Translations under genes and position numbers: made by a program | Part shown: piece after piece, positions 7,721 to 59,993 of the stretch | Position numbering within the stretch: the stretch's first letter is position 1 | How the letters are laid out: each line of letters opens with the position of its first letter | The notes under the pieces: generated by a model | What the model was told of the DNA's origin: nothing | The model's input: the letters and a program-made list of their open reading frames with translations, nothing else | The model's database searches: none | NCBI RefSeq assembly: GCF_007997155.1 | Contig: NZ_VORT01000006.1 | Span: 1 to 64,000, forward strand | Source: Aequorivita antarctica | Lineage (GTDB): Bacteria > Bacteroidota > Bacteroidia > Flavobacteriales > Flavobacteriaceae | DNA: 64,000 nt | Reading direction: 5' to 3'

Positions 7721-8159
7721 TTTATAAAACTACAAGTATAATTTAATAAATTGTATGAAATTTGTTCTATTCCTTCACCCAACCCCCAAAACCCGCATTA
7801 CACAATAGCAACTTAAAATGCGTTTTTCCATAAAATCCGACCCACGACCCCCAAAATTTTAAAGACTAAAAACTCATAATGTCTTCTCCTTAAAACCCCA
7901 GCCACGGATACTCCATAGCAAAGCCATAGCAAAGTCATTAGAATGTAGGAAAACAGCCCTTTTTTCCTACAAATTTAAAAATAGTCGTGAATACGCAGAA
8001 ACGAGCGGTCAAAATACCAATTATATAAGGGCAAATAACAACAGTGAATCCACTAAAAATACTCACTACTCATTACTCATTACTAACTACTAAACTCATT
8101 ACTCACTACTAAAAAAATAACTACTTTTGCCCCCACAAAAATAATTTACAGAAAAGATC
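7721..8159. other. Non-coding interval with a perfect hairpin and ACTCATTACT words
   Basis: No gene is seen in this 439-bp interval. A perfect 10-bp inverted repeat (TGTAGGAAAA / TTTTCCTACA, 7944-7971, 8-nt loop) is present without a T-tract, so it is not a clear terminator. Positions about 8065-8111 hold repeated CTCATTACT/ACTACTAA words, one of the dispersed low-complexity repeat types seen across the window. Confidence 0.6.
8122..8129 (+). promoter_or_regulatory. -7 element TACTTTTG of ppa
   Basis: TACTTTTG matches TAnnTTTG and lies 30 bp before the ppa ATG. The -33 region falls in the ACTCATTACT repeat and has no TTG. Confidence 0.5.
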
Positions 8160-13124: not shown

Positions 13125-14015
13125 ATGAAAAAATATACCTTAATTTTTCTTCTGCTTTTTACTTTCGGAATAAACGCCCAAAATATTAGCGGGCAAGCTT
13201 ATTATGAATCCAAAACCACTGTAGATATGGATGCCTTTGGAGGTGGTCGTGAAATGAGCGAGGAGATGAAAAAAACCGTGGCAACAATGATGAAAAGCGC
13301 CTTGGAAAAAACCTACGTTCTTACTTTTAATAAAGATGAATCCATTTACAAAGAGCAGGAAAAACTGGATGCAAGTCCTATAAATCCTGGTTTTAAAATG
13401 ATGATGAGCAGCTATACGCCGGGAGCTCAATACAAAAATCTGAAAACCGGACAAATTGTTGAAGAAAATGAATTCTTCGGAAAACAATTTTTGGTAACAG
13501 ATTCCATACAAACCTTGGATTGGCAAACAACAAATGAGTCAAAACAAATTGGGCAATACATCGCTTTCAAAGCAACTGCAATAAAGAAAGTAGATCCAAA
13601 CGATTATAGTATGGCCCGTCCCAAACGCGATCGAAAAGATGAAAATGAAAAAGAAAATGCCGAAGTAAAAAAAGACACAACAAAACCGGAAGACCCAATG
13701 GATATGATTGAAATTCCAAAGGAAATTGAGGTTACCGCATGGTTTACACCTCAAATTCCGATTAGTAACGGACCAGGCGAATTTGCGGGTTTGCCCGGAC
13801 TTATTTTAGAATTGAATTTTTACCGAACTACGCTTCTTTGTTCCAAAATAGTAATGAATCCAAAAGATTCAGAAAAAATTGAACCACCCACAAAAGGTAA
13901 AAAAGTTACCCGTGACGAATACACTACAATTGTAAAGGAAAAGACTGATGAACTTCGCGAGAATTTTAGAGGTCGTGGTGGCAATGACCGTCGTGGAGGT
14001 GGTTTTGGGGGGTAA
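13125..14015 (+). CDS. GLPGLI family exported protein
   Basis: The 296-residue product has signal peptide MKKYTLIFLLLFTFGINAQ and the hallmark motif GLPGLI near residue 222 (GEFAGLPGLILELN). A highly charged insert rich in K, D and E spans about residues 160-195. The C-terminus ends in a Gly/Arg-rich tail (GRGGNDRRGGGFGG). GLPGLI proteins are periplasmic or outer-membrane associated and usually lie beside TonB-type outer-membrane receptors. Here the receptor gene follows, separated by an inserted GxxExxY cassette. The cargo or biochemical role is unknown. Upstream dyads suggest tight regulation. Confidence 0.9.
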   Translation: MKKYTLIFLLLFTFGINAQNISGQAYYESKTTVDMDAFGGGREMSEEMKKTVATMMKSALEKTYVLTFNKDESIYKEQEKLDASPINPGFKMMMSSYTPGAQYKNLKTGQIVEENEFFGKQFLVTDSIQTLDWQTTNESKQIGQYIAFKATAIKKVDPNDYSMARPKRDRKDENEKENAEVKKDTTKPEDPMDMIEIPKEIEVTAWFTPQIPISNGPGEFAGLPGLILELNFYRTTLLCSKIVMNPKDSEKIEPPTKGKKVTRDEYTTIVKEKTDELRENFRGRGGNDRRGGGFGG

Positions 14016-14025
14016 AAAGTAAAAA

Positions 14026-14469
14026 ACCACAGAGACACAGAGGGCACAGAGAAAAAATAAAATGATAGAAAACGAAATTTCTTCAAAAATTATAGGGGCT
14101 TGTATTGAGGTCCATAAAGAATTGGGCCCTGGGTTGCTGGAAAGTTCTTATGAACATTGTTTGGCTTATGAGTTGAGAAATTTAGGATTGAATGTAAAAC
14201 AACAAATAGCATTACCAATAATTTATAAAGAAGTAAAGTTGGATGCTGGATATAGAATTGATCTAATTGTTGAAAATACCATTATAGTAGAAATAAAGTC
14301 TGTTGAAGACTTAGCTCCAATTCACACTGCTCAAATTTTAACTTATCTAAAACTTAAAGATTTAAAACTCGGACTTTTAGTGAATTTCAATTCAGTAAAA
14401 TTAGTAGACGGTCTTAAAAGAGTAATAAATGGCTATTTATAATCTTTGTGCCCTCTGTGTCTCTGTGGT
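14026..14469 (+). mobile_element. Candidate IVS-like cassette A: GxxExxY gene between 26-bp inverted repeats
   Basis: A 26-bp sequence beginning ACCACAGAGACACAGAGGGC (14026-14051) is repeated inverted at 14444-14469 with 25 of 26 bases matching. The GxxExxY gene occupies nearly all of the 392-bp loop. The unit lies between two genes expected to be adjacent partners (GLPGLI and outer-membrane receptor) and reads in the same direction. In RNA the ends would form a long stem with the gene in the loop, as in 23S rRNA intervening sequences. Mobility is inferred, not shown. Confidence 0.6.
14062..14442 (+). CDS. GxxExxY protein, PD-(D/E)XK-like (copy 1)
   Basis: This 126-residue protein has the defining motif GLLESSY near residue 29-35, after EVHKELGPG. 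A PD-(D/E)XK_3-type core follows: GYRIDLIVENTIIVEIKSVE, with acidic residues and the EIK lysine placed as in the nuclease fold. The family is widespread in Bacteroidota and often multicopy; activity is unproven. A paralogue lies at 57761-58156. Both copies are bounded by inverted repeats and inserted between unrelated operon genes, so the gene appears to belong to a small transposable or retained cassette rather than to the receptor locus. Confidence 0.9.
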   Translation: MIENEISSKIIGACIEVHKELGPGLLESSYEHCLAYELRNLGLNVKQQIALPIIYKEVKLDAGYRIDLIVENTIIVEIKSVEDLAPIHTAQILTYLKLKDLKLGLLVNFNSVKLVDGLKRVINGYL

Positions 14470-14484
14470 AAATCATTCTTTCCC

Positions 14485-21954: not shown

Positions 21955-22911
21955 ATGAGTGAAAAAGAAGTAAAAAACTTAGAAGAAATTTTCGAAGCCC
22001 GCATTGCGCGCGATGAAAAGATAGAGCCAAAAGATTGGATGCCGGAGAAATACCGTCAAACCCATATTCGGCAAATGAGCCAGCACGCGCATTCCGAAAT
22101 TGTGGGAATGCTTCCCGAAGGAAATTGGATTACCCGTGCGCCTTCTTTGCGAAGAAAAGCTGCTTTGCTTGCGAAAGTTCAAGATGAAGCCGGCCACGGT
22201 TTATATCTGTACTCGGCTTGTGAAACCCTAGGAATTTCAAGAGATGAACTTTACGAACAGCTACATAGCGGAAAGGCGAAATATTCTTCTATTTTCAACT
22301 ATCCAACGGTAACTTGGGCCGATATGGGCGCAGTAGGCTGGTTAGTTGACGGTGCCGCCATTATAAATCAGGTGCCGCTTTGCAATACTTCTTTCGGGCC
22401 TTATGCAAGAGCAATGGTACGCGTATGCAAGGAAGAAAGTTTTCACCAACGACAAGGTTTCGAAATTATGCTGACGCTTTGCCGAGGTTCCGAAGAGCAA
22501 AAAGCAATGGCGCAAGATGCTTTAAATCGCTGGTGGTGGCCAAGTTTAATGATGTTGGGGCCAACCGATGCTGAGTCCATTCACACGGAACAATCAATGA
22601 AATGGAAACTGAAACGCAAAAGTAACGACGAATTACGCCAGCAATTTATAGATCAAACGGTGCCACAAGCAGATTTGCTGGGACTTACAATTCCAGATCC
22701 AGATTTGAAATTCAATAAAGAAACTGGTAGTTATGATTTCGGTGAAATTAATTGGGATGAATTCTGGCAAGTGGTAAAAGGCCACGGCCCGTGTAACAAA
22801 GAACGAATGAGTGCACGCGTCAACGCATGGAATAATGGCGAATGGGTGCGTGATGCTGCAATGGCGCACGCCGAAAAGAATGCAAATAAGAAGATAGCAA
22901 AAGCAAGTTAA
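21955..22911 (+). CDS. paaA: 1,2-phenylacetyl-CoA epoxidase, catalytic subunit PaaA
   Basis: The 318-residue di-iron oxygenase subunit epoxidises the aromatic ring of phenylacetyl-CoA. Iron-binding motifs of the ferritin-like bundle are visible: [11 protein letters not shown] and later EESFHQRQG. It pairs with PaaC and is bridged by PaaB. The gene follows paaE by 41 bp; that gap holds degenerate GCTTAC/GCTTAA words. The next operon gene should be paaB, but a four-helix-bundle cassette is inserted after the paaA stop. Confidence 0.96.
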
Positions 22912-22914
22912 TTA

Positions 22915-23333
22915 AGTATTGAGTATTGAGAGAATAGTAATGAGAATCTTACCATTATGAATGTATTAAATGATTTAAAAGTTTGGAATAAAGCAATGGA
23001 CATTGCAGTTGAAACTTATAAATTATCTTCAAAGTTCCCAAAAGAAGAAAAATACGGATTGACTAGCCAAATAAGAAGAAGTGCTATTTCTGTTCCGTCA
23101 AATATTGCTGAAGGTGCAGGAAGAAATACAAAAGGTGAATTTAAAAATTTCATTAGCATTGCAAATGGTTCAGCGTATGAGCTTTTTACTCAATTAATAC
23201 TTTCGCATAAGCTAAATTTAGTCTCAGAAAATTTGGTTGAACCTATTCTTAAAGAAGTAATAGAAGTACAAAAAATGAATTACGCATTAATTAAATCTTT
23301 AGAGAAATAATGAATAACTCAATACAAAATACT
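22915..23333 (+). mobile_element. Candidate IVS-like cassette B: four-helix-bundle gene between inverted repeats (paaA/paaB)
   Basis: AGTATTGAGTATTGAG (22915-22930) and CTCAATACAAAATACT (23318-23333) are inverted repeats with 14 of 16 matches. They bound the four-helix-bundle gene and start 3 bp after the paaA stop. The insert separates two genes whose products act in one stoichiometric complex. It is co-directional with the operon. The design matches 23S rRNA intervening sequences, whose flanks pair into a stem. Confidence 0.55.
22957..23310 (+). CDS. Four-helix-bundle protein, 23S rRNA-IVS type (copy 1)
   Basis: This 117-residue protein shows the family hallmark SQIRRSAISVPSNIAEGAGR near residues 47-66, preceded by DLKVWNKAMDIAVE. 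Members were first described inside intervening sequences of bacterial 23S rRNA genes and form four-helix bundles that assemble into pentamers; their function is unknown. Here it is in a protein-coding operon between paaA and paaB and not in an rRNA gene. It seems intact. It is flanked by imperfect inverted repeats. A diverged relative lies at 23681-24061 and a C-terminal remnant near 26324-26422. Confidence 0.9.
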   Translation: MNVLNDLKVWNKAMDIAVETYKLSSKFPKEEKYGLTSQIRRSAISVPSNIAEGAGRNTKGEFKNFISIANGSAYELFTQLILSHKLNLVSENLVEPILKEVIEVQKMNYALIKSLEK

Positions 23334-23353
23334 AACTACTCAAGACTTTATTT

Positions 23354-23638
23354 ATGAAAAAGAATTGGCCCCTTTGGGAAATATTCGTCCGCAGTAAAAA
23401 TGGATTGGAACACCGTCATTTTGGAAGCCTCCACGCTGCCGATGCTGAAATGGCAATGGAAAATGCCCGCGATGTTTATACTAGAAGAAATGAAGGCGTG
23501 AGCATTTGGGTTGTTGAAAGCAAAAATATTACCGCTTCAAATCCTGCAGATAATGGCGAAATGTTTGAACCTGCGCAGGACAAAGTATATCGTCATCCCA
23601 CTTTTTATGATTTGCCGGATGAGGTGAAGCACATGTAA
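23354..23638 (+). CDS. paaB: 1,2-phenylacetyl-CoA epoxidase subunit PaaB
   Basis: The 94-residue subunit bridges PaaAC heterodimers and is required for the active complex. The typical pattern WEIFVRSKNGLEHRHFGSLHAADAEMA is visible and the length is normal. It is isolated from both paaA and paaC by four-helix-bundle cassettes, one on each side. If the cassettes' RNA stems are cut, the paaABC message would be split around this gene. Confidence 0.95.
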   Translation: MKKNWPLWEIFVRSKNGLEHRHFGSLHAADAEMAMENARDVYTRRNEGVSIWVVESKNITASNPADNGEMFEPAQDKVYRHPTFYDLPDEVKHM

Positions 23639-23648
23639 ATCTTAAGTG

Positions 23649-24076
23649 ATTAGGCAATGGGTATTTGGAATTAGTATGTTATGAAAAGTAAATATCATTT
23701 TAAGTTTGAAGATTTAAATGTTTATCAAAAAGCTATGGATTTTGGTGAATTGACTAACATATTAGTAATGAAATTTACTCAACATGAATTATATGCGCTG
23801 TCATCTCAATTCAGAAGAGCTGCAGATTCTATTGCCTTGAATGTTGCAGAAGGCTATCCAGGAAGCGATTTGCAATTCATTAAACATATTAACTATTCTA
23901 TTTATAGTTCTAATGAATGTGTTTCTTGTAGTACGAAAGCAAGAAGAAGGGATTATATTTCAGTAGAAGAAGACGAAGAAAATCGAAAATACTTATCTGA
24001 ATTGACAAAAATGCTTTCCTCACTTAGGAATAAGATAAAAGAAAGAAATACTATTACCTAATACCCAATCCCTAAT
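23649..24076 (+). mobile_element. Candidate IVS-like cassette C: second four-helix-bundle gene between inverted repeats (paaB/paaC)
   Basis: ATTAGGCAATGGGTATT (23649-23665) and AATACCCAATCCCTAAT (24060-24076) are inverted repeats with 15 of 17 matches, and weaker pairing extends inward. The right repeat overlaps the stop codon of the enclosed gene. The left repeat starts 10 bp after the paaB stop. The repeat sequence differs from cassette B, so the two were not made by simple duplication. Confidence 0.55.
23681..24061 (+). CDS. Four-helix-bundle protein, 23S rRNA-IVS type (copy 2)
   Basis: This 126-residue protein shares the family pattern (FEDLNVYQKAMDFGEL, then SSQFRRAADSIALNVAEGYPG) but is diverged from copy 1 at 22957. 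The region CVSCSTKARRRDYISVEEDEE contains two close cysteines and lies where family members usually carry the loop between helices 3 and 4. The gene sits between paaB and paaC, reads with the operon and lies within an inverted-repeat pair. Function is unknown. Confidence 0.88.
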   Translation: MKSKYHFKFEDLNVYQKAMDFGELTNILVMKFTQHELYALSSQFRRAADSIALNVAEGYPGSDLQFIKHINYSIYSSNECVSCSTKARRRDYISVEEDEENRKYLSELTKMLSSLRNKIKERNTIT

Positions 24077-24087
24077 GCCTTTATAAA

Positions 24088-24843
24088 ATGAAAAACAAAA
24101 ACCTCTATAATTACATCCTCACAATTGCTGACAATTCCCTGATTTTAGCGCAGCGATTGGGTGAACTCTGCGGTCACGGTCCCAACTTGGAAACCGATAT
24201 TGCACTAACAAATATTTCGTTGGATTTGCTAGGTCAAACTAGAAGTTATTATCAATATGCCGCAAAAATTTCCGGAGAAGGTAAAACTGAAGACGATATC
24301 GCTTTTTTAAGAATTGAAAGGGAATACAAAAACTGTCTTTTGGTAGAACAGCCAAATACACATTTCGGTTACGTGATTGGCCGTCAGTTTTTGTTTGATG
24401 TCTATCATTTGATGTTGATGGAAAAATTGCAGAACAGTCCCGACGAAACATTGGCAGCTATTGCAAAAAAAGGAATTAAGGAAGTGAGTTATCACAAACG
24501 TTTTTCAAGCGATTGGGTAAAACGTTTGGGTGATGGCACTGAAGAAAGTAACACTAAAATGCAGGAAGCAATCGATGATCTTTGGCGATGCACCGATGAA
24601 CTTTTCTTTATGACTGATGCTGAAAATGCTATGGTTAAAGAAGGCATCGGAATTGATGTTTCATCTTTTAAAGGGAAATATTACAAAGAGGTTTCCGAAG
24701 TTTTAAAAGAAGCCACACTCACTATTCCAGAAAACAAATATTTTACTAAAGGCGGAAAAGAAGGAATTCACACTGAACATATGGGTTATATTTTGGCTGA
24801 TTTGCAATATATGCAGCGCACCTATCCGAATATGACGTGGTAG
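24088..24843 (+). CDS. paaC: 1,2-phenylacetyl-CoA epoxidase subunit PaaC
   Basis: The 251-residue structural partner of PaaA has the ferritin-like fold but normally lacks a working di-iron site. Diagnostic segments include ADNSLILAQRLGELCGHGP, ALTNISLDLLGQTRSYYQYAA and EVSYHKRFSSDWVKRLGDGT. The C-terminal HTEHMGYILADLQYMQRTYP is also typical. It starts 26 bp after the second cassette gene. A repeat-rich hairpin fills the gap to paaD. Confidence 0.95.
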   Translation: MKNKNLYNYILTIADNSLILAQRLGELCGHGPNLETDIALTNISLDLLGQTRSYYQYAAKISGEGKTEDDIAFLRIEREYKNCLLVEQPNTHFGYVIGRQFLFDVYHLMLMEKLQNSPDETLAAIAKKGIKEVSYHKRFSSDWVKRLGDGTEESNTKMQEAIDDLWRCTDELFFMTDAENAMVKEGIGIDVSSFKGKYYKEVSEVLKEATLTIPENKYFTKGGKEGIHTEHMGYILADLQYMQRTYPNMTW

Positions 24844-24846
24844 AAT

Positions 24847-24930
24847 GATTAACGATTAACGATTGAAGATTGCTGATTTCAGAATTAAAAACTTCAACAA
24901 TCAAAAATCGTTAATCAACAATCGTTAATC
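24847..24930. repeat. Hairpin of GATTAACGATT words between paaC and paaD
   Basis: Two overlapping copies of GATTAACGATT (24847-24864) face two copies of AATCGTTAATC (24907-24930) across a short A/T-rich loop. The arrangement resembles the cassette ends but holds no gene. The same words recur at 26430, 29014 and 58829. Confidence 0.75.
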
Positions 24931-24955
24931 GGGTTCCTGCAATCGTTAATAAATT

Positions 24956-25459: not shown

Positions 25460-25466
25460 TAACGAA

Positions 25467-25495
25467 ATGTCACCCTGAGCGCAATCGAAGGGTCT
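25467..25495. repeat. TCGA palindromic repeat between paaD and paaG
   Basis: ATGTCACCCTGAGCGCAATC followed by GAAGGGTCT; ACCCT and AGGGT pair. It is one of the dispersed ATGTCa..GAGCGCARTCGA elements found here in both intergenic and coding positions. Confidence 0.75.
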
Positions 25496-25511
25496 TTTAA
25501 AACATATAAAT

Positions 25512-52307: not shown

Positions 52308-52318
52308 TATTTTTTTTT

Positions 52319-52358
52319 ACTGAACACTGAACACTGAATACTGGCCACTGACCCCTGA
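52319..52358. repeat. CACTGAA word repeat
   Basis: ACTGAACACTGAACACTGAA then TACTGGCCACTGACCCCTGA. The same word series recurs at 59936-59993. It fills the gap between the two TPM genes. Confidence 0.75.
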
Positions 52359-52359
52359 A

Positions 52360-52821
52360 TCACCCCACCGAAATTTCGTCCGGTAGTTCATTCTTGTCAT
52401 CTTTTTTATAAGGAAAATGTTTTTTCAACTGTTCGCCAGCCTTTAGAATTCCTTCCACCAAACCTTGCTTTATATCACCATTTTTGAAATGGTTGATGAT
52501 AATATCTTTGGTGCTTTCCCAAAAATTTTGCCCCACAATGTCGTTAATGCCTTTGTCGCCCATTATTACCAGCGTTCTATCCTGTACAGCAACATAAATA
52601 AGCACACCGTTGCTTTCTTTGGTGTTATCCATATTTAGCATATCAAACACTTCCACAGCACGGTCAAAGGCATCAATGTGCTCATTTGGTTCTTCTGCGG
52701 AAATGGAAGTGGGCTCCAAATGCACTCGAATTTCACCAGAAGTGTTTTTTTCAGCAATACGAATAGCTTCAACAATAGCGGCTTCTTCTTCCGAAGTAAG
52801 AAAATCTTCAACCTTTGACAT
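52360..52821 (-). CDS. TPM-domain protein (short, cytosolic form)
   Basis: The 153-residue product consists of a TPM domain (EEEAAIVEAIRIAEKNTSGEIRVHLE, then NGVLIYVAVQDRTLVIMGDKG). It has no signal peptide or membrane helix. Its start overlaps the lemA stop by one base (TAATG), which indicates translational coupling. Function in the LemA/TPM group is not settled. Confidence 0.9.
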   Translation of the reverse strand: MSKVEDFLTSEEEAAIVEAIRIAEKNTSGEIRVHLEPTSISAEEPNEHIDAFDRAVEVFDMLNMDNTKESNGVLIYVAVQDRTLVIMGDKGINDIVGQNFWESTKDIIINHFKNGDIKQGLVEGILKAGEQLKKHFPYKKDDKNELPDEISVG

Positions 52822-53795: not shown

Positions 53796-53895
53796 GCTTA
53801 CAGCTTACAGCTTACAGCTTACAGCTTACAGCTTACAGCTTACAGCTTACAGCTTACAGCTTACAGCTTACAGCTTACAGCTTACAGCTTACAGC
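53796..53895. repeat. Tandem array of GCTTACA (about 14 copies of 7 bp)
   Basis: Positions 53796-53893 are 14 perfect copies of GCTTACA, plus GC. The array sits between the M23 peptidase stop and the MerR start. The same word appears in degenerate form between paaE and paaA (21915-21950). The copy number is likely to vary by slipped pairing. Confidence 0.95.
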
Positions 53896-57737: not shown

Positions 57738-57738
57738 G

Positions 57739-58184
57739 CTCGCAAAGGCGCAAAGAAATTATGGAGCAAAATAATAATTTAACGGAAAACCAGATTGCTT
57801 CGATAATTGTTGATTGCTGTTATCATATTCATATTGAACTGGGGCCAGGTTTGTTGGAGTCTGTTTATGAGGAGGTATTATTTCATGAACTTACTTCTAA
57901 AAATTTAACTGTAGAAAAACAAAAACCTTTGCCCGTTATTTGGAAGAATCTAAAATTGAATTTAGGATTTCGAACAGATTTAATAGTTAACAATAAAGTT
58001 ATTGTTGAAATCAAATCTTTAGAAGAGATTCATCCCGTGCACCCAAAACAAGTTTTAACCTATTTGCGACTAACGGGATTGAAATTAGGACATTTAATAA
58101 ACTTCAATAGCCCGCTAATTAAATCTGGAATTACAAGAATTGTAAATAATCTTTAAATACTTTGCGTCTTTGCGTCTTTGCGAG
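57739..58184 (+). mobile_element. Candidate IVS-like cassette D: second GxxExxY gene between inverted repeats
   Basis: CTCGCAAAGGCGCAAAGA (57739-57756) and TCTTTGCGTCTTTGCGAG (58167-58184) are inverted repeats with 17 of 18 matches; the right arm has one extra GCGTCTTT unit. They bound the GxxExxY gene between alaS and the GSCFA gene. The arms differ in sequence from cassette A but the layout and size (446 versus 444 bp) are almost identical. Confidence 0.6.
57761..58156 (+). CDS. GxxExxY protein, PD-(D/E)XK-like (copy 2)
   Basis: The 131-residue protein carries GLLESVY after HIELGPG, then FRTDLIVNNKVIVEIKSLE, and a C-terminal KLGHLINFNSPLIKSGI. It is a diverged paralogue of the gene at 14062-14442 (similar core, different N-terminus). 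It reads with alaS. As with copy 1, the inverted repeats start right outside the reading frame. Biochemical activity is unproven. Confidence 0.9.
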   Translation: MEQNNNLTENQIASIIVDCCYHIHIELGPGLLESVYEEVLFHELTSKNLTVEKQKPLPVIWKNLKLNLGFRTDLIVNNKVIVEIKSLEEIHPVHPKQVLTYLRLTGLKLGHLINFNSPLIKSGITRIVNNL

Positions 58185-59902: not shown

Positions 59903-59935
59903 AGAAAGTTTAAAAGTTTAGAAATTTTAAGATTA

Positions 59936-59993
59936 CACTGAAAACTGAGCACTGAAAACTGAGCACTGTAAACTGAACACTGAACACTGACTA
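59936..59993. repeat. CACTGAA word repeat
   Basis: CACTGAAAACTGAGCACTGA and further ACTGAACACTGAACACTGA units form a tandem word series, the same type as at 52319. The 467-bp gap 59817-60283 otherwise holds terminators, two palindrome sites and a possible small RNA; no protein gene is seen. Confidence 0.75.

Follow-up and report, generated by a model that had tools for sequence, protein, structure and literature searches.

The paa operon of Aequorivita antarctica raises the question of what the two small genes lying between paaA, paaB and paaC are, and how they have come to be there. The stretch analysed here, hereafter the window, comprises 64,000 nucleotides, positions 1-64000 of one contig (C63) in a genome of 3.84 Mb. 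Its plus strand carries paaA, coding for 1,2-phenylacetyl-CoA epoxidase subunit A (21955-22911; TIGR02156, 7.6e-160), paaB (23354-23638; TIGR02157, 4.3e-44) and paaC (24088-24843; TIGR02158, 4.5e-83); the stop-to-start spans are 442 nt between paaA and paaB and 449 nt between paaB and paaC, each holding one insert. In the best explanation, with a probability of about two in three, both inserts are small elements that move laterally, reside in operons and are related to the 23S rRNA intervening sequence (IVS). No description of such an operon-borne class was found in the open-licence literature.

Two genes between opposed heptamer arrays

The gene of element 1, IVP1, is located at 22957-23310 on the plus strand and codes for a four-helix-bundle/23S rRNA intervening-sequence protein of 117 aa (PF05635, 1.1e-39; TIGR02436, 3.9e-38); the gene of element 2, IVP2, is found at 23681-24061 on the same strand and codes for a four-helix-bundle protein of 126 aa (PF05635, 4.2e-23; TIGR02436, 1e-22). 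Both are above the curated cut-offs, with 135.4 and 82 bits against 33.8 for PF05635 and 130 and 80.4 bits against 24 for TIGR02436; thus the original prediction, which placed two IVS-type four-helix-bundle genes among the paa genes, was right on their identity. The two proteins are about 30% identical, and the solved family relatives 2gsc and 2rld have five chains each. PF05635 proteins are common, being present in 116 of 148 sampled genomes of the phylum; they are mostly annotated just as "four helix bundle protein". Neither gene lies in a 23S rRNA, both being located among paaA, paaB and paaC, and the window contains no Rfam family of any kind at gathering scores, nor was a group I or group II intron core found in it.

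Each gene is enclosed by an inverted repeat. In element 1, the 5' arm (22910-22944) matches the 3' arm (23318-23352) in inverted orientation over 35 nt at 71%, including a part of 16 nt at 88% (22915-22930 with 23318-23333); in element 2, the arms at 23644-23677 and 24048-24081 match over 34 nt at 79%. Inverted repeats had been predicted to lie just outside the reading frames. They do exist, but the right arm of element 2 starts inside the ORF, of which it shares the last 14 nt, and the prediction had missed that the arms are arrays with a period of 7 nt. Indeed, the 5' arm of element 1 is a degenerate heptamer array with ATTGAGT as unit, for which Tandem Repeats Finder (TRF) reports period 7 at 22911-22930, and period 7 is the best one for both arms of element 2. 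The plan of the elements is one four-helix-bundle protein gene between two opposed arrays, each of about four to five degenerate heptamers. The same class of arms is also found without a gene directly downstream: between paaC and the next gene, an ORF-less pair of opposed arrays occupies 24847-24931 (plus strand; TRF period 7, with GATTAAC at 24847-24864 and AATCGTT at 24906-24931, orientation read from the sequence).

Arms of the family

The arms were scored for complementarity around related genes, here called IVP genes. For 94 such genes from the genus and order (near set), the median score of a gene's own arms is 20; mismatched arms and 342 control genes both have a median of 11, and 65 of the 94 surpass the 95th percentile of the controls. 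The top-scoring control gene proved to be an IVP gene itself and was later dropped, bringing the controls to 341. In a far set, 51 of 72 IVP genes exceed the 95th percentile of mismatched arms; these are the usable ones among 80 loci in named genomes found with element 1 as query, and the set is biased towards relatives of element 1 because a single protein served as query. They come from Bacteroidota, Acidobacteria, Planctomycetes, Chloroflexi, proteobacteria, a cyanobacterial bin and others, where single taxon assignments may be wrong because many of the genomes are metagenome bins. After dereplication at 70% identity, 73 of 104 IVP genes surpass the 95th percentile for mismatched arms, whereas 31 do not. 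The arm-flanked anatomy is thus real and recurs widely, within the genus as well as in other phyla, and the survey suggested earlier, on whether this family generally lies between inverted repeats outside rRNA, has a positive outcome in these sets.

Taken one by one, the two elements of the window are weak under one of two choices of flank. In their genome, seven of ten IVP genes score at least 20, as compared with three of 341 control genes; the remaining three are the two window elements and L009 (15, 12 and 11). When 150 nt outside the ORF are considered on each side, the score of element 1 is reached by 35 of 341 controls and that of element 2 by 153. With 60 nt outside and 20 nt inside the ORF, a choice made after the 150-nt result was known, the elements score 18 and 20, values reached by one and by none of the 341 controls, and 133 of all 234 IVP genes exceed the control 95th percentile. 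Significance for either element taken singly depends on the flank window; the arm evidence is solid at the family level, not from these two elements alone. A scan of 464 kb for inverted repeats scoring at least 20 returned 19 matches, most of which do not resemble heptamer arrays; element 2 and the IVP of L087 are among the 19, element 1 is missing.

RNA folds computed for 60 of the 104 representatives also show complementarity: the median of the expected arm-to-arm pairs is 22.9, falling to 7.2 when the 3' arm is swapped, and at least eight such pairs are expected in 49 of 60 own combinations and in 30 of 60 swapped ones. Copies at one site were compared as well. At a thiolase junction, 12 dereplicated copies (two of them of another IVP type) have an own score of 18.5 against 12.0 for arms combined across species (p 0.002), and at a second junction four copies give 16.5 against 10.5; since own scores exceed cross-species ones at one site, the two arms change together. 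This removes one argument of the original prediction, namely that the different repeats of the two elements speak against simple duplication. The difference has no bearing on the matter, because the arms at one site diverge from species to species without losing the match within each copy, and the proteins themselves are only about 30% identical.

The 7-nt period was seen in both sets. In the near set, identity at lag 7 is 0.408 in the 5' flanks and 0.402 in the 3' flanks, against about 0.30 in shuffled sequence (z scores 24 and 28); the signal returns at lags 14 and 21, and lag 8 has a smaller peak. In the far set the values are 0.41 and 0.42 against about 0.27. Among far-set flanks having a period, 7 is the best one in 45 of 52 3' flanks and 39 of 46 5' flanks; no period was detected in 28 of 94 near and 20 of 72 far 3' flanks. 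The unit varies from element to element, and some types have a period of 6 or 8. Of 332 arms, 206 pass a score of 8, and their arrays have a median length of 33 nt. A heptamer strictly read by the protein was considered and rejected: for pairs at different sites with 55-70% protein identity, arm similarity is only 11 over a background of 9, so no tight protein-heptamer code exists. At 70-85% identity it rises to 20 against 9, the arms travelling with the gene, in 59 pairs that seem to be dominated by one IVP family.

Heptamer arrays are not confined to IVP genes. TRF reports period 7 at many gene junctions across the window, 13 places of which carry gene-less arrays; over 464 kb (400 kb of contig C22 plus the window), 17 intergenic period-7 arrays pass a threshold of 17 matches out of 21, and no other period between 5 and 12 has more than three. 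Among those in the window is a perfect GCTTACA array of 14.3 copies (53796-53895), possibly variable in length, with a minus-strand gene on either side, of which the left one, judged by eye, resembles MerR; others occupy the junctions at 2666-2787, 8060-8122, 52318-52360 and 59935-59990. A different kind of array was seen in G190, whose 200-kb sample (L344-L353) has 36 arrays of period 9, almost all in predicted coding sequence.

Such gene-less arrays, also published for Bacteroidetes and elsewhere in the excerpts of PMC4679880, would be expected if the elements were passive cargo, that is, if ordinary intergenic arrays arose by slippage and template-switch mirroring and IVP genes were host genes or relics among them, swapped by short-tract homologous recombination. 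This account is considered unlikely, as same-genome control genes lack the matched arms that most IVP genes have and the arms stay matched while drifting. Moreover, four IVP-free genomes contain no intergenic period-7 array in 800 kb, while five IVP-carrying ones have 22 in 1,200 kb (9, 9, 0, 2 and 2), a comparison of nine genomes that is small and phylogenetically confounded and in which G122, with 11 IVP genes, has none in 200 kb.

Junction occupancy and probable movement between species

PaaB was found in 39 of 59 relatives, and 30 loci were compared, 27 from the genus (28 genomes, G001 yielding no locus) and three from outside it. At the paaA-paaB junction of the 27 genus loci, the genes are separated by 1 nt (TAA-n-ATG) in three cases, by an ORF-less insert of 79-123 nt in 15, by IVP1 in eight (one frameshifted) and by a DUF4160/DUF2442 pair in one (L025). 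The ORF-less inserts have folding z values from -1.4 to -6.8; therefore, not all of them are strong hairpins. Outside the genus, two relatives of the same family have the 1-nt gap, and L026 has no paaA in reach. The 1-nt alleles of the genus (L014, L019 and L024) may be ancestral or secondary.

The paaB-paaC junction, readable in 26 of the 27 loci, is short or ORF-less in nine (25-188 nt) and carries IVP2 in four, IVP3 in eight (period-6 arms; one copy, in L040, broken) and a further IVP in L024, while four loci were filed as GIY-YIG, with PF01541 matches in L017, L020 and L035 and a remnant without Pfam match in L033. The GIY-YIG genes, like the remnant, adjoin repeats of the attcccgcgaaggcgggaatc type. 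Another junction repeat, of the type GTCACC..TGAGCGCA..TCGAA-GG, recurs in the window at 25466-25500 and in short paaB-paaC junctions, for example in L011 and L014.

On a tree of 29 paaABC rows, the junction states need at least nine changes for paaA-paaB and at least 15 for paaB-paaC, where gain and loss are not distinguishable and only 12 of the 26 internal branches have good support; one clade of four (support 100/100) has four different paaB-paaC states. Precise excision at the DNA level was considered and rejected, since the left arm, complete in L016, is only partly preserved in its sister L018, which looks like a deletion. Empty and filled alleles thus exist at the same junctions of related genomes, as 1-nt gaps, ORF-less inserts and IVP genes, and inverted repeats around IVP genes are more frequent than at random junctions, the two points on which the original prediction had been staked.

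Divergence of the copies points to movement between species. In all 28 species pairs, IVP1 shows less divergence than either paaA or paaC; the same holds for IVP2 in three of six pairs and for IVP3 in six of 28, so much of the history of these two may be vertical or old. The dS of IVP1 is lower than that of paaA in all 15 computable pairs (six of 21 were not computable), from 0.043 against 0.695 up to 1.03 against 1.70, with values above 1 for paaA being near saturation; low IVP1 dS is not due to constraint, because distant pairs reach a dS near 1. Profiles of p-distance in 60-nt steps were drawn for seven pairs. In L030/L028, L030/L021 and L019/L023, both edges of the low-divergence tract lie at the element; in L037/L033 and L033/L022 the tract overruns by about 60 nt, and in L021/L032 the left edge is blurred by similar flanks. 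In L037/L036 it extends about 200 nt into paaB, as plain homologous recombination would also produce, and this pair favours the passive-cargo account, against which stand the tracts that stop at the element edge. Since the similarity of some copies at one site greatly exceeds that of their flanking genes, and some tracts are sharp-edged, lateral movement into the same site is indicated, and the elements at the paa junctions seem to have been passed between related species, in line with the mobile alternative of the original prediction, which had named a mobile or retained element class.

Movement to other sites is much less evident. Copies at least 94% identical to IVP1 are found only at the paaA-paaB junction (seven genomes plus the broken one, out of 28) and copies at least 81% identical to IVP2 only at paaB-paaC (five of 28); a relative of IVP1 with about 72% identity lies at a thiolase junction, and IVP2 relatives with 50-62% identity are mostly a few kb onward on the same contig. 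With close copies confined to one junction, new sites are rarely colonised and re-invasion of the same site is common. The dN/dS of IVP1, about 0.02-0.05 in pairs with dS above 0.1, indicates that the protein is kept under purifying selection; many other IVP copies carry stops.

IVP genes also have a marked orientation. As was foreseen for the two window genes, which follow the direction of the operon, 80 of 82 called near IVP genes are co-directional with both neighbours, against 148 of 278 control genes. For the upstream and downstream neighbour separately, the near set gives 81/83 and 89/91, the far set 55/59 and 39/42, and the controls 206/298 and 211/295. The span separating the upstream stop codon from the following start has a median of 503 nt (85 of 104 representatives measurable). 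The arms are polarised as well, the 5' arm being G-rich in 75 and the 3' arm C-rich in 78 of 104 representatives (controls, 114/348 and 199/348).

Sense orientation and arms that are G-rich and C-rich relative to the transcript would suit a retro-element, in which IVS RNA with a ring like that of Avd is copied by a reverse transcriptase and re-inserted at transcribed junctions (retrohoming). The Avd protein of diversity-generating retroelements (DGR) does belong to the same broad four-helix-bundle family, a homology discussed in the excerpts of PMC10053308, and element 1 matches the Avd model NF033474 with 4.8e-6. However, its 26.8 bits are below the equivalog cut-off of 80, and for element 2 no match to this model is listed. 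In addition, with one reverse transcriptase family model, no RVT_1 match was found in 19 of 28 genus genomes, including G016 (17 IVP genes) and G020 (21), and no reverse transcriptase lies beside the window elements, the single RVT_1 match of the genome being on another contig, C43. Retrohoming is thus quite improbable.

REPINs are small palindromic intergenic elements moved in trans by a Y1 (RAYT) transposase, and the present elements, also small, palindromic and intergenic, could be imagined as MITE- or REPIN-like. This origin is very improbable: Y1_Tnp (PF01797) has no match in nine of 28 genus genomes, among them the window genome and G016; the Y1 genes of the genus have hairpins of their own and lack period 7 in their flanks (lag 7, 0.26; 11 of 12 loci usable); and REPIN repeats form sequence families, whereas the heptamers vary from copy to copy. 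A resident reverse transcriptase or Y1 transposase was therefore rejected as required mover, each being missing from many element-carrying genomes; G016, a genome in one contig with its 17 IVP genes, has neither match. These absences favour uptake and recombination as the inferred route for the mobile IVS relative.

Proposed mechanism and comparison with known systems

By analogy with what is described for rRNA IVSs, and along the lines of the original prediction that the inserts may fold within the mRNA or be cut out of it, the two arms would pair into a long stem within the operon mRNA. RNase III would cut this stem, releasing a small mRNA and disconnecting the cistrons on either side, and an insertion would then cost the host little. 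The protein ring may bind either its own RNA or the arms. From one species to another, the elements would move on the DNA level, by uptake and recombination; new sites would be colonised rarely, and only sense insertions between genes would survive. What the element may supply is stealth, a processable stem, rather than an enzyme.

A wider version is put forward tentatively and regarded as doubtful: PF05635 genes with opposed heptamer arrays could be pan-bacterial, RNA-level parasites of operons, in which each subunit of a pentameric ring reads roughly one heptamer (the median array of 33 nt is near five heptamers), the stem cut by RNase III hides the element between cistrons, and copies home to the same stop-to-start junction in other strains. 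The rRNA IVS would then be a special case that landed in rRNA, and the scattered gene-less arrays non-autonomous derivatives. If this link of IVP genes, arrays, junctions and IVSs is true, rRNA IVSs and intergenic heptamer arrays, both old puzzles, would share one frame, and many operons would be cut post-transcriptionally at element stems.

With REPIN/RAYT, GxxExxY and GIY-YIG cassettes, the elements share a small gene, or none, between inverted repeats at gene junctions. The window itself contains a GxxExxY gene (14062-14442; TIGR04256, 155.8 bits; PF13366) between opposed CACAGAG-type repeats (14011-14484), with an arm score reached by none of 341 control genes, and a second PF13366 gene (57761-58156), behind an ORF of 882 aa, between opposed TTTGCG-type repeats (57738-58182). 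Opposed repeats around small genes are thus not specific to IVP genes, as GxxExxY and Y1 genes have them too; heptamer arms were not seen in these two families. Unlike the heptamer arms, the repeats of the REPIN/RAYT, GxxExxY and GIY-YIG cassettes form conserved families with another period (the GxxExxY flanks peak at lag 9). In 24 usable of 30 GxxExxY loci, own arms score 18.5 against 11 for mismatched ones; because different loci have similar repeats, only five surpass the 95th percentile.

Intergenic arrays of heptamer direct repeats (TAACTGA and others), degenerate or perfect and occurring also in Bacteroidetes, are described in the excerpts of PMC4679880. They resemble the present arrays in period and in their position between genes, and differ in that mostly a single heptamer, repeated in direct orientation, is described; neither "intervening" nor "S23" appears in that paper.

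The closest parallel is the helix-45 23S rRNA IVS of Coxiella burnetii, for which the excerpts of PMC4990558 give a length of 428-444 nt, a terminal stem of 28 bp cut by RNase III, and three tandem heptamers before the S23p ORF, variable in number between strains, with an RNase III site at the first. An S23p relative is reported there as a toroidal homopentamer, and the Coxiella ORF is seen as decaying, its protein probably not being made in vivo. A five-motif pattern for 23S rRNA, a weak test, found no match in L160-L239. In the paa elements, complementary ends surround the ORF as in rRNA IVSs, with the stem a computed one, and, judged against the published description, the tandem heptamers beside the ORF appear to be of the Coxiella type. 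Protein family, sense orientation relative to the host RNA and size (442 and 449 nt) agree as well, and sporadic distribution and lateral transfer are shared with 23S rRNA IVSs in general. Conversely, the elements described here lie between protein-coding genes and have arrays on both sides with copy-specific heptamers, and IVP1, differently from the decaying Coxiella ORF, is maintained by purifying selection.
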